Below, piece after piece: positions 36,464 to 41,618 of a stretch of 45,315 nucleotides of DNA. The stretch covers positions 1-45,315 of the forward strand of contig JAHFPP010000003.1 of the NCBI GenBank assembly GCA_023266675.1, given 5' to 3'. This DNA comes from Candidatus Woesearchaeota archaeon. GTDB taxonomy: Archaea > Nanobdellota > Nanobdellia > Woesearchaeales > BM511. Every line of letters begins with the position of its first letter. Within the stretch, counting starts at the first letter, position 1. The notes under the pieces were generated by a model, which ran no database searches, was not told where the DNA came from, and saw nothing but the letters and a program-made list of their open reading frames with translations. The translations under genes and the position numbers were made by a program.

Positions 36464-37123
36464 TTATCTATAGAATTCTTGAACTTTTGCATCTAAATAT
36501 TTTGCTTCATTAATTGGTCGACTTAAAAATCTAGGTGAATTTAATGTCATTCCCATGACTGGTGCAGATATAGCAGATATTGTAGTTGGGAGTATAACTT
36601 GTTGAATAGTCATCATTTGTTGAAATTCTTCTTGACTCAGATTCAAATTTGGTGCAAACAGATATCTTGACAACAAATAGCAAGTTCCAAAGGTCATCGC
36701 AGTTATTTCTGCACCTGCAGTAATTAAATTATCTGGTGCAAATATTCCATATGTTCTCAAACCTAATGTTCCAGAAATTAATTCTTCAATCTGATTTACT
36801 CTTTTATTATGAACACTATTTTTTACCCTTGGTAAAATTTTTCTAATTCCTTTATTGACTTTTGAAAGTTCATTTAACGAATCTTCAATGCTTTGTTTTC
36901 CGCTGACTGCATCATAAAAGACAGGATTTGATTCATAACTTTTTATAAGTTCTTTTTGAACAGAGAAAATATCTATTTGTGGAGGTATTTCGGTTAAAAC
37001 AGAAGAAAATCCTGGCAATGATTCAAATTCTTTTAAAGAAGTTCTTGCTGAATCTACAAGGCGTTTAAGTCTTTCGTTGATTGATTCTGAGCTTCTCAAC
37101 TTATAATATAAAGTTTTTTCCAT
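36464..37123 (-). CDS. Hypothetical protein with C-terminal hydrophobic segments
   Basis: Intact ORF; LITAGAEITAMTFGTCYLLSRYLF and VILPTTISAISAPVMGMTL; own TATA-like TTTATAAAT upstream. Confidence 0.5.
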   Translation of the reverse strand: MEKTLYYKLRSSESINERLKRLVDSARTSLKEFESLPGFSSVLTEIPPQIDIFSVQKELIKSYESNPVFYDAVSGKQSIEDSLNELSKVNKGIRKILPRVKNSVHNKRVNQIEELISGTLGLRTYGIFAPDNLITAGAEITAMTFGTCYLLSRYLFAPNLNLSQEEFQQMMTIQQVILPTTISAISAPVMGMTLNSPRFLSRPINEAKYLDAKVQEFYR

Positions 37124-37249
37124 ATTATTTTGAATAAATAATTATTATTTATAAATCTTACTATTATTTTACCACTTTATAGTCGTTATAATTATCAATA
37201 AGAGTTTACAAACTTCAAAATAACGGATAGTGAATATATTTTAAAAAAA

Positions 37250-38170
37250 TTAGTTTGATACACTCGATAAGAATCTTGATAAAATCCCATCGGGTTTTTT
37301 CTTTGGCGACTCATAATTATTTTTTCCATGTCCTGTATCATTTCTTAGACTTATAAGATAATCAACAATCCTATCTGCGTAGTAATTATCTTTGGTCTCC
37401 ATTGGTGTGAAATCAGGATTTCTATTGCATTCCAGCACATAATAATCTCCTTTTCTTGTTATTACAACATCAGTTCCTAAAATTTTTGCAGGATTATTCA
37501 TAATAACTTTTTGTGCTATCTTTTCTGCAACATAACTTCCGGTAAAATTTTTGGTTCCATAGCAAAAACTATGACCTGCAACTTTTCCACCGATAGTTAA
37601 AACCCTGATTGAAGTGACTATATCCAGATATTCCTGAAATATTGCCCAAGAATGCTGATTTTCATTAAAATAATCCCTAACTTCTTGTTCATTTGCAACT
37701 ACTTTAAATCCTCGTTTTTTAGTTCCATCATTTGGCTTAATAATCATAGGGAAAGTTAGATTAGTTGTTATCTCCTCCAAAGTCTGCTCTGATAACCCTG
37801 ATGCAAAAATAGTTTTGGGAGTATATTCTGATGCTCTTAAAACTTGGGATGGAAATTTTGATACTGGATATATTAATGATGCTGATGGGTCAACGACAAC
37901 TTTTCCTCTTGATTCCATTGCAGTTGCAAGCTGATAACTTTCTAATTCCGCACCTCTTGTTCTGCGAATAATAACTATGTCTGAATCCGAGATGTCTCTG
38001 CCTTGATAATTAACCCTTAAATCTCCTGATGCAAAATGATAAGTAATCATTGATGGGTCAAGAACAATTGTATCTAAACCTTTTCTTTCAGCAGATTTCA
38101 ATATCAATGAATCTCCTTTACTTGGTCTTTTATTATCCGTAAGTTTTGTCGAACTTAATACTAACTTCAT
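37250..38170 (-). CDS. RimK-like ATP-grasp ligase
   Basis: FPMIIKPNDGTKKRGFKVV; WAIFQEYLDIVTSIRVLTIGGKVAGHSF; YYVLECNRNPDFTPME. Confidence 0.8.
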   Translation of the reverse strand: MKLVLSSTKLTDNKRPSKGDSLILKSAERKGLDTIVLDPSMITYHFASGDLRVNYQGRDISDSDIVIIRRTRGAELESYQLATAMESRGKVVVDPSASLIYPVSKFPSQVLRASEYTPKTIFASGLSEQTLEEITTNLTFPMIIKPNDGTKKRGFKVVANEQEVRDYFNENQHSWAIFQEYLDIVTSIRVLTIGGKVAGHSFCYGTKNFTGSYVAEKIAQKVIMNNPAKILGTDVVITRKGDYYVLECNRNPDFTPMETKDNYYADRIVDYLISLRNDTGHGKNNYESPKKKPDGILSRFLSSVSN

Positions 38171-38173
38171 TTT

Positions 38174-41100
38174 TTAGCCACCTATTACTTGCTTTGCAAT
38201 TTTTGTAATATAACTCTCTTGTTGTTGAATAACCGGATTTATTGTTGTAGGTAACTGTGGTTTTAGGACATACACTTCTGCATTTACTTCTATTTTGCCA
38301 AGTAATGTTTTTTTAGTTGTTAAACCATCTCCATAAAATGCATTAAAATGTGCAGGTTCAATCTGAACTGACCTAATCTCTTTAGTTGCTTTTCCCTGTG
38401 ATACCATGTTTTCTAATAATGATGACATTGATTGCGGCGTAAATGTTGTTGGGATCATTACATCTTGTTTTGTGTGATTAGCAAAGTTACCAAGATAATC
38501 TACCCATGCATTATTTAAATTCATATTTCCATTTTGATAAAATCTTGTGCAAAGAATTCCTTTATCTGTTAATGCTGTTCTGTTTCTGCCAACATATTTT
38601 CCATCCTCTGTTTTTGCGTAGATGACATTCTTGTTTAAGTCCACTGTCTGAACTACTGACGCCCAACCATTGCATCCACCATAAGTTTTGGATAAGCTCA
38701 GACATGAATCAAAGTATTGCCCCATATGCAATGATTCAATTGGGTCTTGGCTGACATAAAAGAGAGTATCTGCTTTCATTTCCTTTAATGTTCCTGTAAT
38801 GCTACGAGCAGTCTGTATGTGTCCCTTTATCTCTAATTTCAAAGGTTTTGTTTTTTTAGTAAATTTATAGGTTCCTAAGAATTTTTCTACACTATCAAGT
38901 TGCTCTCTTAAACTTCCTTCTTTAAGACTGTTAAGTTCATCTTCCTCAAGTTCAAGCTGTTTTAATCTGTTAAAAATTTGGTCAACTTCTGCATCTATTT
39001 TTTCTTTTGACCTTTGAAGTGAACCTTCATCTGTTGCAAGTTCATAAGTCTGTTTTATTCCTGTCTTGAATGCGTGAATATCTATTCCTTGTTTTTTCAA
39101 TCTCTTCTCAAGTGATTTATTTCCGTCTAATCCAGAGATGGCAGCTCTTGCCCCGTCCGCTCCTTTTTCAAGATATGCTGAAGTTATTAATTTCAATGCT
39201 GGTCGAATTTCAACGCCATAAAGAGTTCCTGAATTTTGAGAATATCCAATAACAATATTACCAACAGAATCCTCTAATGATCTTGGAACTGCTTTACCGT
39301 CAGTCACAACTGAAAAATATTCTTTTCTTGATGAAGCTATAGCATTAAATATGATATCATAACCTGCATCATTATGAATCGCTGCCAATCTTTTTTCTAA
39401 AAATTCAACTGCACCTACTGTCTTCAAGAAACTATGAGTTCTGTTCAATTCAGCAAATGCTTTTACAAACTCTCTTTTTCCTGCTTTATCGCCAAGTTTT
39501 GATACAACGCCACTTACTAATTCATCAGGTGCCTTATTCATCAAGTCTTTTATCAAATCCCTGTTTCTTTGTTTTCCGACATAATTCAAAAATGCTTTTA
39601 ATTGTGTTTCATCTAAAAACTTTTCATATCCTTTTTTAATGTCAGGCAATTTCTGGAAGTCATTTCCTGTGGCTTCAAAATCTCTTTCAAACTGAACAAA
39701 ACTCTTTCCAAGAAACCCATCATATAATTCCAAAGTATGCTGTGCAGATAAATCATTAAACCCAAGATTCATATTAGCGTTTTTTCTCTGCTTATCAGCA
39801 AACTCAATATACTGCCTTGCTCTTGATTCAGTTCTATTAGCCCACTCAACAAATTCGTTTATACCTGCAACTTTTGGAATAGCAAATAGATGAGTTTCTA
39901 TCAATCTTTCATTAATGTTAGAACTTTTACATAGAGAATAAAGTTTTGCTGTCTCATTAAAAGCAGATATTAAGTCAACATCTGAAACACTGCTTGGTAA
40001 ACTTGAATATACAAAAGAGACTGCTCTGCGGTGCATTGCATTATTTGTCAATTCATTAATCGCATTAAGTTGATTAGTGTCAAGGTGACTTCTTAATAGA
40101 CTTCTTTTTCTTTCTGATGGCAAATCAACATATTTATCTGTAAAAGTAGGAATACTAAATAGTTCTTTTCCAAGAGTGGAATAATCTGCTATAAGCATGT
40201 CTAAATCCAAACCAAGCGATTTTTGATATGCTACAACTGTTGGTCTTGATTTTAATGCAAACTCTCTTCCTTTGCTCCATTCAGATTGGAATAACTCGTT
40301 TACATGTCTTAACCAAGCACCACCGACTTCTACCCCTGCTTGTCTGTAAACTTCTTGTATCTCACTAAATAAAGAGGTATTTTCATTCCCTCCATGAGAT
40401 TTTAAATCAATATCATAAATATTAAATTTATCAAATCCAGAGTCTAATCCAAATGCTGAATACTCAGATTTCAAACTTAATAATGAAATATCAAATTTGG
40501 GTCTTGCCAGATTTGAAAAAATATATGTCTCTGGTTCAGAAAAGTTTTTATCATAAAATCTAATCTTTTTTGACTCATTGAGAAAATAGTTTTCAGGCTC
40601 TTTAATTCTTAAACCAGTATATCCTCCAAATTCATCGTATTTTATTTTTCTTGACAATAAAAAAGGGTCATCTTTTTCAACTCTTGGAGAAATCATTGAT
40701 AATCGTGTCATCAAAGGATTTCCGTTCATTCCACTTGTTTGGTCAGGAAATAAAGTTGTTACAGCAGTCGTATAAGCAATAATATCTGTTGCTGGAATAC
40801 TTCCAAGTGTCGTTAAAAAATCTTGTGCAGATGTTGATGCAGATGTCGCTACCCTATGTGATGCATCCAAAAGAGCATCTAATGTGGTTTTCTCGCCTTT
40901 TTGCTGTAACTCTAAAAGTTGCTGTCTAAATCTTTTAAGACCCCCATCATGTTGAACAGCATTATTCGCAAAATTCCAAGATGCATTTATTATATGTGCT
41001 TCATCAGGGTCTGCTTTCCTTTCAGGTTCATCATTAATAATTTTAGAAATATAACTTACTCTTCTTTCATTTTGCCGTGAGTTTATATATATTAAACTTT

Positions 41101-41338
41101 CAAGATTATTTATAATATTTTCATTTTTCTTTATTTTTGAAGATTCTACTTTCTTTGATGCAATCTCCGCCCTAATATTCATTTCTGCCATTTGCTGATA
41201 AATAATTAGGTGAGCAGATTCCATTTCTCTTAAAGCAAGATTAATCCTTGCTGTTAAATTACCTACCTCACTAGCAAGAGGATTATGCTTAACTTCATCC
41301 AAGAATGGTTGTGCATCAATTAACTGATTATAAACCAT
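38174..41338 (-). CDS. Giant uncharacterised protein (about 1054 aa)
   Basis: Single long ORF; ATG at 41338 is likely (ORF track starts at 41356); C-terminal conserved-looking block DPIESLHMGQYFDSCLSLSKTYGGCNGWASVVQTVDLNKNVIYAKTEDGKYVGRNR; stop 3 nt before the ATP-grasp start. Confidence 0.75.
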   Translation of the reverse strand: MVYNQLIDAQPFLDEVKHNPLASEVGNLTARINLALREMESAHLIIYQQMAEMNIRAEIASKKVESSKIKKNENIINNLESLIYINSRQNERRVSYISKIINDEPERKADPDEAHIINASWNFANNAVQHDGGLKRFRQQLLELQQKGEKTTLDALLDASHRVATSASTSAQDFLTTLGSIPATDIIAYTTAVTTLFPDQTSGMNGNPLMTRLSMISPRVEKDDPFLLSRKIKYDEFGGYTGLRIKEPENYFLNESKKIRFYDKNFSEPETYIFSNLARPKFDISLLSLKSEYSAFGLDSGFDKFNIYDIDLKSHGGNENTSLFSEIQEVYRQAGVEVGGAWLRHVNELFQSEWSKGREFALKSRPTVVAYQKSLGLDLDMLIADYSTLGKELFSIPTFTDKYVDLPSERKRSLLRSHLDTNQLNAINELTNNAMHRRAVSFVYSSLPSSVSDVDLISAFNETAKLYSLCKSSNINERLIETHLFAIPKVAGINEFVEWANRTESRARQYIEFADKQRKNANMNLGFNDLSAQHTLELYDGFLGKSFVQFERDFEATGNDFQKLPDIKKGYEKFLDETQLKAFLNYVGKQRNRDLIKDLMNKAPDELVSGVVSKLGDKAGKREFVKAFAELNRTHSFLKTVGAVEFLEKRLAAIHNDAGYDIIFNAIASSRKEYFSVVTDGKAVPRSLEDSVGNIVIGYSQNSGTLYGVEIRPALKLITSAYLEKGADGARAAISGLDGNKSLEKRLKKQGIDIHAFKTGIKQTYELATDEGSLQRSKEKIDAEVDQIFNRLKQLELEEDELNSLKEGSLREQLDSVEKFLGTYKFTKKTKPLKLEIKGHIQTARSITGTLKEMKADTLFYVSQDPIESLHMGQYFDSCLSLSKTYGGCNGWASVVQTVDLNKNVIYAKTEDGKYVGRNRTALTDKGILCTRFYQNGNMNLNNAWVDYLGNFANHTKQDVMIPTTFTPQSMSSLLENMVSQGKATKEIRSVQIEPAHFNAFYGDGLTTKKTLLGKIEVNAEVYVLKPQLPTTINPVIQQQESYITKIAKQVIGG

Positions 41339-41486
41339 TGTCAACTGGCACCTCAATTACTTTAATTGTTATCTCAACTATTGTTTTCGGTTTAAGGTCA
41401 TCTCTCAACAATTTAGGTATGACTATTATTGAGTTATCCCCGTGCTTTGCAATTTTCTTTCTTAATATGTATTGTTTTGTTTCCAT
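41328..41486 (-). CDS. Small AbrB/SpoVT-like DNA-binding protein, 52 aa
   Basis: METKQYILRKKIAKHGDNSIIVIPKLLRDDLKPKTIVEITIKVIEVPVDNGL; not in ORF track; overlaps the start of the giant gene. Confidence 0.6.
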   Translation of the reverse strand: METKQYILRKKIAKHGDNSIIVIPKLLRDDLKPKTIVEITIKVIEVPVDNGL

Positions 41487-41495
41487 TGTGATAAA

Positions 41496-41514
41496 ATTGT
41501 AATTTTATTACAAT
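41496..41514. promoter_or_regulatory. Inverted repeat ATTGTAA-TTTTA-TTACAAT upstream of AbrB-like gene
   Basis: 7-bp perfect arms; TATA-like GTTTATAAACC (minus strand, about 41530-41540) lies just upstream. Confidence 0.55.
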
Positions 41515-41618
41515 AAGTAAAGTATATTGGTTTATAAACTTTTCGATATTTTTACTACTTAGCAGTTGTTATAATACCTTGTAAATATTTATAAACTCTA
41601 TAGGAGAAGAAAGATAAT

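Follow-up and report, generated by a model that had tools for sequence, protein, structure and literature searches.

The window analyzed here is a stretch of 45,315 nucleotides (positions 1 to 45,315 of contig JAHFPP010000003.1, assembly GCA_023266675.1) from a Candidatus Woesearchaeota archaeon, and on its minus strand three closely packed open reading frames (ORFs) encode a 52-amino-acid (aa) protein plausibly of the AbrB/MazE DNA-binding type, a 1054-aa protein that we refer to as the giant, and a 306-aa RimK-like ATP-grasp ligase (Table 1). This layout had been proposed in a first-pass annotation made from the letters of the window, and the three ORFs and their spacing were recovered in full: the AbrB-type gene overlaps the start of the giant gene by 11 nt, the giant stop codon (38174-38176) lies 3 nt ahead of the ligase ATG, and the final giant codons, GGT GGC, supply a GGTGG Shine-Dalgarno-like stretch for the ligase gene. 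The length of 1054 aa is counted from an ATG; an upstream TTG start would extend the protein to 1060 aa. Because the giant ORF runs for 1054 codons at ~33% G+C and has homologues that align across 500-700 residues, we concluded that it has not arisen by chance. It is present in one copy in the 1.22-Mb genome.

The giant had been described as an orphan, a label that no longer applies, as it has relatives in both archaea and bacteria. Whole-genome searches brought out relatives of the same class, and searching with the aligned C-terminal part (127-185 residues) added further ones. What they share is a conserved C-terminal domain, which lies within the last ~200 residues of the giant and is carried by ~20 other proteins; a search at the level of the order detected it confidently in 10 further genomes among 353 (~3%), each representing another genus. 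The archaeal holders are Woesearchaeales and related archaea, and the bacterial ones belong to the Planctomycetota (Planctomycetaceae and Pirellulaceae), the Obscuribacterales, and the Chloroflexota (Ardenticatenales). In nearly all cases the domain sits at or near the C terminus of a large protein (~820-1320 aa where complete), and the N-terminal parts of these proteins differ. The closest relatives, in genomes G503, G358, G476, and G285, match the giant at 43.5% over 519 aa, 31% over 698 aa, 35% over 358 aa, and 29% over 266 aa, respectively, and one further genome, G542, encodes two paralogous giants (C46 and C61; L080 and L087/L091).

Neither the giant nor its C-terminal domain was matched in Pfam, NCBIfam, PHROGs, or PADLOC (in the last case with no model matching up to an E value of 1), and sequence searches of the PDB with either gave nothing meaningful. 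Weak Pfam and NCBIfam matches of the giant to EcoR124_C, Complex1_49kDa, and Topo VI were discarded as helical noise, and we likewise treated as spurious a match in G224 (E = 4e-4, within a 7979-aa frame) and alignment-search matches at E values of 0.002-0.008. Whole-protein pattern scans of the genome and of viral contigs returned no relatives, and the 8-member alignment proved too diverse for scans of this kind. Viral contigs yielded no relative of the domain, and tblastn against phages and plasmids gave no match.

Structure prediction pointed to a GNAT fold for the conserved domain. An AlphaFold2 model of giant residues 635-1054, built on a 15-sequence alignment, had a predicted local distance difference test score (pLDDT) of 71.5, mostly 75-90 in the domain itself; residues 635-856 were modeled as helical, and the conserved region ran past the domain to about residue 1029. 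A Foldseek search of the PDB with this model placed GNAT enzymes at the top, with a best E value (0.11) that is not significant. A domain-only model of another family member, that in L028 (129 aa, pLDDT 69), also showed GNAT topology, and all 50 of the PDB matches listed for it were GNAT enzymes (best E = 3.9e-4, probability mostly 1.00, template modeling [TM] score about 0.5-0.57 for the best). The motif Q/RxxGxG/A, between β4 and α3, is the CoA-binding signature of GNATs, and this acetyl-CoA P-loop was present in none of the aligned members; profile searches with 5 and 16 members retrieved no acetyltransferase family up to an E value of 10. We concluded that the domain is GNAT-like in its predicted fold and fails the sequence criteria of an ordinary acetyl-CoA GNAT.

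Nine positions are invariant in the 16-member alignment, which spans archaea and several bacterial lineages: a Leu, a Met, and a Gly in α1, the Cys and Leu of an S/T-C-L loop (Cys is C879), an Asn-Lys pair before β2 (N902 and K903), an Arg in β3 (R918), and a Tyr at the end of β4 (Y934). The last of these is His and Phe in the close relatives G503 and G476, respectively, and G476 varies also at the Leu after the Cys; otherwise, both keep the invariant set. Because the CoA P-loop is missing while the Cys, Asn-Lys, and Arg residues are invariant, the domain probably uses a donor other than canonically bound acyl-CoA.

At the head of the operon, the AbrB/MazE label given earlier to the 52-aa protein is plausible: its match to PF04014 is weak (E = 6e-4) and misses the cut-off (20.1 versus 24.7 bits), and the assignment is strengthened because an ORF 50% identical to it over 40 aa holds the same position in G358, 13 nt upstream of the giant gene. 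The AbrB-giant pair is thus conserved as synteny in two genomes, in keeping with the earlier proposal of a single transcription and translation unit led by a small regulator. Among the close relatives, G358 alone retains a complete 5' end of the giant gene; contig ends cut it off in G503, G476, and G285. In G200, a 47-aa ribbon-helix-helix (RHH)-like ORF, itself below the cut-off, overlaps the giant start, which brings to three the genomes in which a small putative DNA-binding ORF (AbrB or RHH-like) overlaps or just precedes the giant gene, with the type of regulator swapped.

The third gene does encode a RimK-like ATP-grasp protein, as had been proposed, since it scores above the PF08443 cut-off (32.3 versus 21 bits); it falls far under the curated TIGR00768 cut-off (57.8 versus 143.4 bits) and below those of R2K_2 (23.7 versus 26.2 bits) and R2K_3 (13.5 versus 26.3 bits). 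Alignment with RimK-family relatives of the same phylum (18-25% identity) showed that the ATP lysines K105 and K145 and the Mg holders D234, E247, and N249 are retained, whereas a deletion has removed the substrate-side R..N.HAGG loop and Ser stands in place of the DIR aspartate. Because the ATP and Mg residues are kept and these substrate-side features are lost, the ligase is probably active with a different substrate; a separate, standard RimK is encoded elsewhere in the genome. A search of 371 genomes from the phylum turned up no close homologue of the ligase (best match, about 40 bits), and viral contigs held no relatives.

The earlier annotation had taken the giant and the ligase to form one functional unit. 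The neighborhoods of the about 20 giant homologues examined contained no relative of the ATP-grasp gene, and no ligase homologue was detectable anywhere in the G358, G503, and G285 genomes, some of the genomes searched being incomplete; G476 yielded only a 70-residue match (E = 0.003), and G582 only distant RimK-like matches. As an obligate or conserved unit, giant plus ligase therefore fails by the test that the earlier annotation itself had set, because the ATP-grasp gene is not conserved beside the giant gene; the AbrB-type gene is, and the AbrB-giant pair stands. Other genes follow the giants elsewhere. In G358, an ADP-ribosylglycohydrolase gene (PF03747, E = 3e-83) begins 59 nt past the giant gene, in the place of the ATP-grasp gene, and in the single-cell genome G196 a glutamate-cysteine-ligase-like (GCS-like) ORF (L024:10613-11980; PF03074, E = 5e-4, below the cut-off) lies 280 nt downstream of the giant gene. 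Just upstream of the giant in G233 (L009:2720-5984) are ORFs resembling a ClpX-like AAA protein, a JAB-type protease, and a ThiF/E1-like protein, which we take to be a possible ubiquitin-like conjugation cluster. The giant of the window itself ends in ...VIGG (38174-38185), its Gly-Gly codons doubling as the ligase Shine-Dalgarno stretch; the idea that this is a ubiquitin-like tail was dropped, as it is not kept in relatives and the GGTGGC codons have that other role.

Table 1. Positions of the operon genes, the GNAT-fold domain, and associated promoter features in the window
Feature	Coordinates	Strand	Basis
AbrB/MazE-type DNA-binding protein (plausible), 52 aa, first gene	41328..41486	minus	ORF; PF04014 below cut-off; G358 synteny
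Giant, 1054 aa, with C-terminal GNAT-fold domain (predicted)	38174..41338	minus	ORF, homologues, AlphaFold2
GNAT-fold domain (predicted), about residues 857-977, β1-α1-α2-β2-β3-β4-α3-β5-α4	38408..38770	minus	alignments, AlphaFold2, Foldseek
RimK-like ATP-grasp ligase, 306 aa	37250..38170	minus	PF08443, TIGR00768, alignment
219-aa protein, no family assigned	36464..37123	minus	ORF, shared promoter element
Promoter-upstream element ATTATAACNACTNNNNAGTNGTAAAA, copy 1	41550..41575	minus	similarity search, simulations
TATA box TTTATAAA, operon promoter	41531..41538	minus	sequence
Promoter-upstream element, copy 2, same TATA spacing	37167..37192	minus	similarity search, simulations
TATA box TTTATAAA, 219-aa gene	37148..37155	minus	sequence
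Two overlapping 8-bp-arm inverted repeats at expected transcription start; possible operator	41491..41514	minus	sequence

The promoter region contains a feature that the first-pass annotation overlooked. A 26-bp element, ATTATAACNACTNNNNAGTNGTAAAA, occurs in exactly two copies in the genome, ahead of the AbrB-type gene and ahead of the gene for the 219-aa protein, and in both copies its AGTNGT half ends 15 nt ahead of identical TTTATAAA boxes, that of the operon lying 52 nt upstream of the AbrB ATG. Allowing up to 3 mismatches added two degraded matches, versus one for the reversed control, and the similarity of the two upstream regions was reached in 0 of 1000 Markov simulations and by 0 of 377 other upstream pairs from the window. 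This is a much stronger promoter feature than the 7-bp inverted repeat reported previously at the predicted transcription start, which is indeed present, in the form of two overlapping repeats with 8-bp arms; repeats as good arose in 8.4% of shuffled 155-nt sequences, and we treat it as weak evidence for a possible operator, for which chance could also account. Because its promoter has the only other copy of the 26-bp element, the 219-aa gene probably belongs to the regulatory unit of the operon. Its product has a moderately hydrophobic C-terminal half, no family match, and no paralogue in its own genome better than an E value of 0.08.

Related palindromes were seen at other sites. The third genomic copy of ACNACT-N4-AGTNGT follows a TATA box and sits 1 nt ahead of the ATG in another orphan gene, of 455 aa (L074:1042-2426; G000:C22:2041-3425), and ACTACT...AGTAGT palindromes occur where the G196 giant begins (L024:7131-7146) and immediately ahead of the RHH-like ORF in G200 (L023, about 150 to 136 nt ahead of the giant start). 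Because the general palindrome showed no genome-wide enrichment over the reversed control, we regard a common regulon across genomes as only a lead.

Taken together, these results are best read, with a confidence just short of even, as describing an autoregulated and sporadically distributed module for protein or peptide modification with interchangeable accessory enzymes. The AbrB-type protein would regulate the operon that encodes it, with the shared promoter-upstream element as its probable site of action, and the 219-aa protein would be co-regulated. The giant, a product of roughly 120 kDa, would probably use its N-terminal part as a scaffold or target-binding region and its GNAT-fold domain as the likely catalytic or ligand-binding part, and the ligase, translationally coupled behind it, would join an amino acid or a peptide onto the substrate of the giant; in G358 its slot is taken by the ADP-ribosylglycohydrolase. 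The operon structure and the fold are supported by the data above, whereas autoregulation, enzymatic activity, a common substrate, the donor, and the scaffold role are inferred. The reading also draws on precedent, namely operons in which R2K ATP-grasp genes occur together with GNATs and with ADP-ribosylglycohydrolases and for which protein modification has been proposed (PMC4431377). The modification-type activity suggested in the first-pass annotation gains support from these partnerships and from the GNAT-fold domain.

Several points weigh against a modification module. The ATP-grasp partner occurs in this genome only, and operon position alone links it functionally to the giant; the glycohydrolase of G358 could be a chance neighbor; at the sequence level the domain matches no GNAT family, the Foldseek E values of the longer model start at 0.1, and the confidence of both models is moderate (pLDDT 71.5 and 69). 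Without the QxxGxG/A P-loop, moreover, catalysis is not assured. The main rival explanation is that only the AbrB-giant pair is a real unit and that chance placed the ligase gene behind the giant in this lineage, where it shares the promoter while its product acts on an unrelated small-molecule or protein substrate. This would account for its absence from the neighborhoods of the ~20 relatives and from the genomes of the closest ones, and for the lack of close homologues in the phylum, whereas the 3-nt spacing, the placement of the ligase Shine-Dalgarno stretch inside the giant gene, and the precedent for operons that combine GNAT and ATP-grasp genes (PMC4431377) speak for a closer tie; on balance we consider this alternative rather unlikely.

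A toxin-antitoxin or defense role, akin to the conflict-type system suggested in the first-pass annotation, is possible. The AbrB-type protein (RHH in G200) would then be a labile regulator of the antitoxin kind, and the giant, once induced, would act as an effector by modifying a target in the cell or in an invader, with accessory genes that vary. The small regulator ORFs of swapped type in three genomes, the patchy distribution over single members of different genera, and the occurrence of GNATs in toxin-antitoxin and conflict systems (PMC5512222) are consistent with such a role, which we nevertheless judge improbable: PADLOC gave no match, the small ORF was not recognized in most relatives (including all of the bacterial ones seen), no viral, phage, or plasmid relatives were found, and the genes adjoining the operon are of ordinary chromosomal types, such as PfkB and HAD. 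Acquisition as an island of distinct composition was rejected, the G+C content at 37-41 kb resembling that of the surroundings. Least probable of all, in our view, is a giant that serves as a structural or adaptor protein with its GNAT fold used for binding only; the lack of the CoA P-loop from every family member would fit, and set against it is the invariance of polar residues (Cys, Asn-Lys, and Arg) across phyla, a pattern seen more typically in active sites or ligand sites.

Returning to the modification module, a bolder version would make the C-terminal domain a new class of CoA-independent GNAT-fold transferase, carried on very large archaeal and bacterial scaffold proteins and cooperating with tailoring enzymes that can be exchanged (ATP-grasp ligase, ADP-ribosylglycohydrolase, and perhaps a GCS-like ligase) under regulators of the antitoxin type, that is, an undescribed modular protein-modification or conflict system; we offer this as speculation, with the chances well against it. 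If the GNAT-fold domain were active without the CoA loop, a large superfamily of enzymes would gain a new chemistry. What had seemed an orphan giant now belongs to a cross-domain family that has a recognizable fold and a short list of mutable invariant residues, and the locus defines a minimal module (regulator, giant, accessory enzyme, and shared promoter element) in the Woesearchaeales, where most genes are without function.

Compared with known systems, the 52-aa protein resembles AbrB/MazE-type autoregulators and antitoxins in its size, its weak PF04014 match, and its place as a first gene that overlaps the next, and it differs in that its partner is a protein of 1054 aa instead of a small toxin. 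The ligase shares the ATP-grasp core and the ATP and Mg residues with the RimK family (ribosomal protein S6 glutamate ligase, PF08443/TIGR00768) and departs from it at the substrate-side positions and in its TIGR00768 score. A Cys-containing loop followed by β-strands is presumably also the order in PcfJ-like plasmid and phage proteins, which appeared at ranks 2 and 18 among weak fold matches in a viral library; the likeness was too weak to use (Foldseek E about 0.01-0.14, insignificant, and TM < 0.2), and the PcfJ profile PF14284 matched neither the family members nor anything else in the genome. The C-terminal domain shares with the GNAT superfamily acetyltransferases its predicted β1-α1-α2-β2-β3-β4-α3-β5 topology and its Foldseek matches, and is set apart by having no sequence match and no CoA motif and by being carried on very large proteins. 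The domain family and this combination of genes are absent from the libraries and literature searched, whereas the kind of operon is already known. Its closest counterparts are the R2K/RimK ATP-grasp, GNAT, and ADP-ribosylglycohydrolase operons (Burroughs, Zhang, and Aravind 2015, PMC4431377): here the ATP-grasp gene scores best against RimK (over the cut-off) and below the R2K_2 cut-off, the GNAT-fold family is divergent and borne on a 1000-aa protein, an AbrB-type gene heads the operon, and ATP-grasp and glycohydrolase genes were not seen together. As in those operons, an ATP-grasp peptide-ligase gene adjoins a GNAT-fold gene in the window, an ADP-ribosylglycohydrolase gene adjoins the same GNAT-fold family in G358, and the distribution is sporadic.

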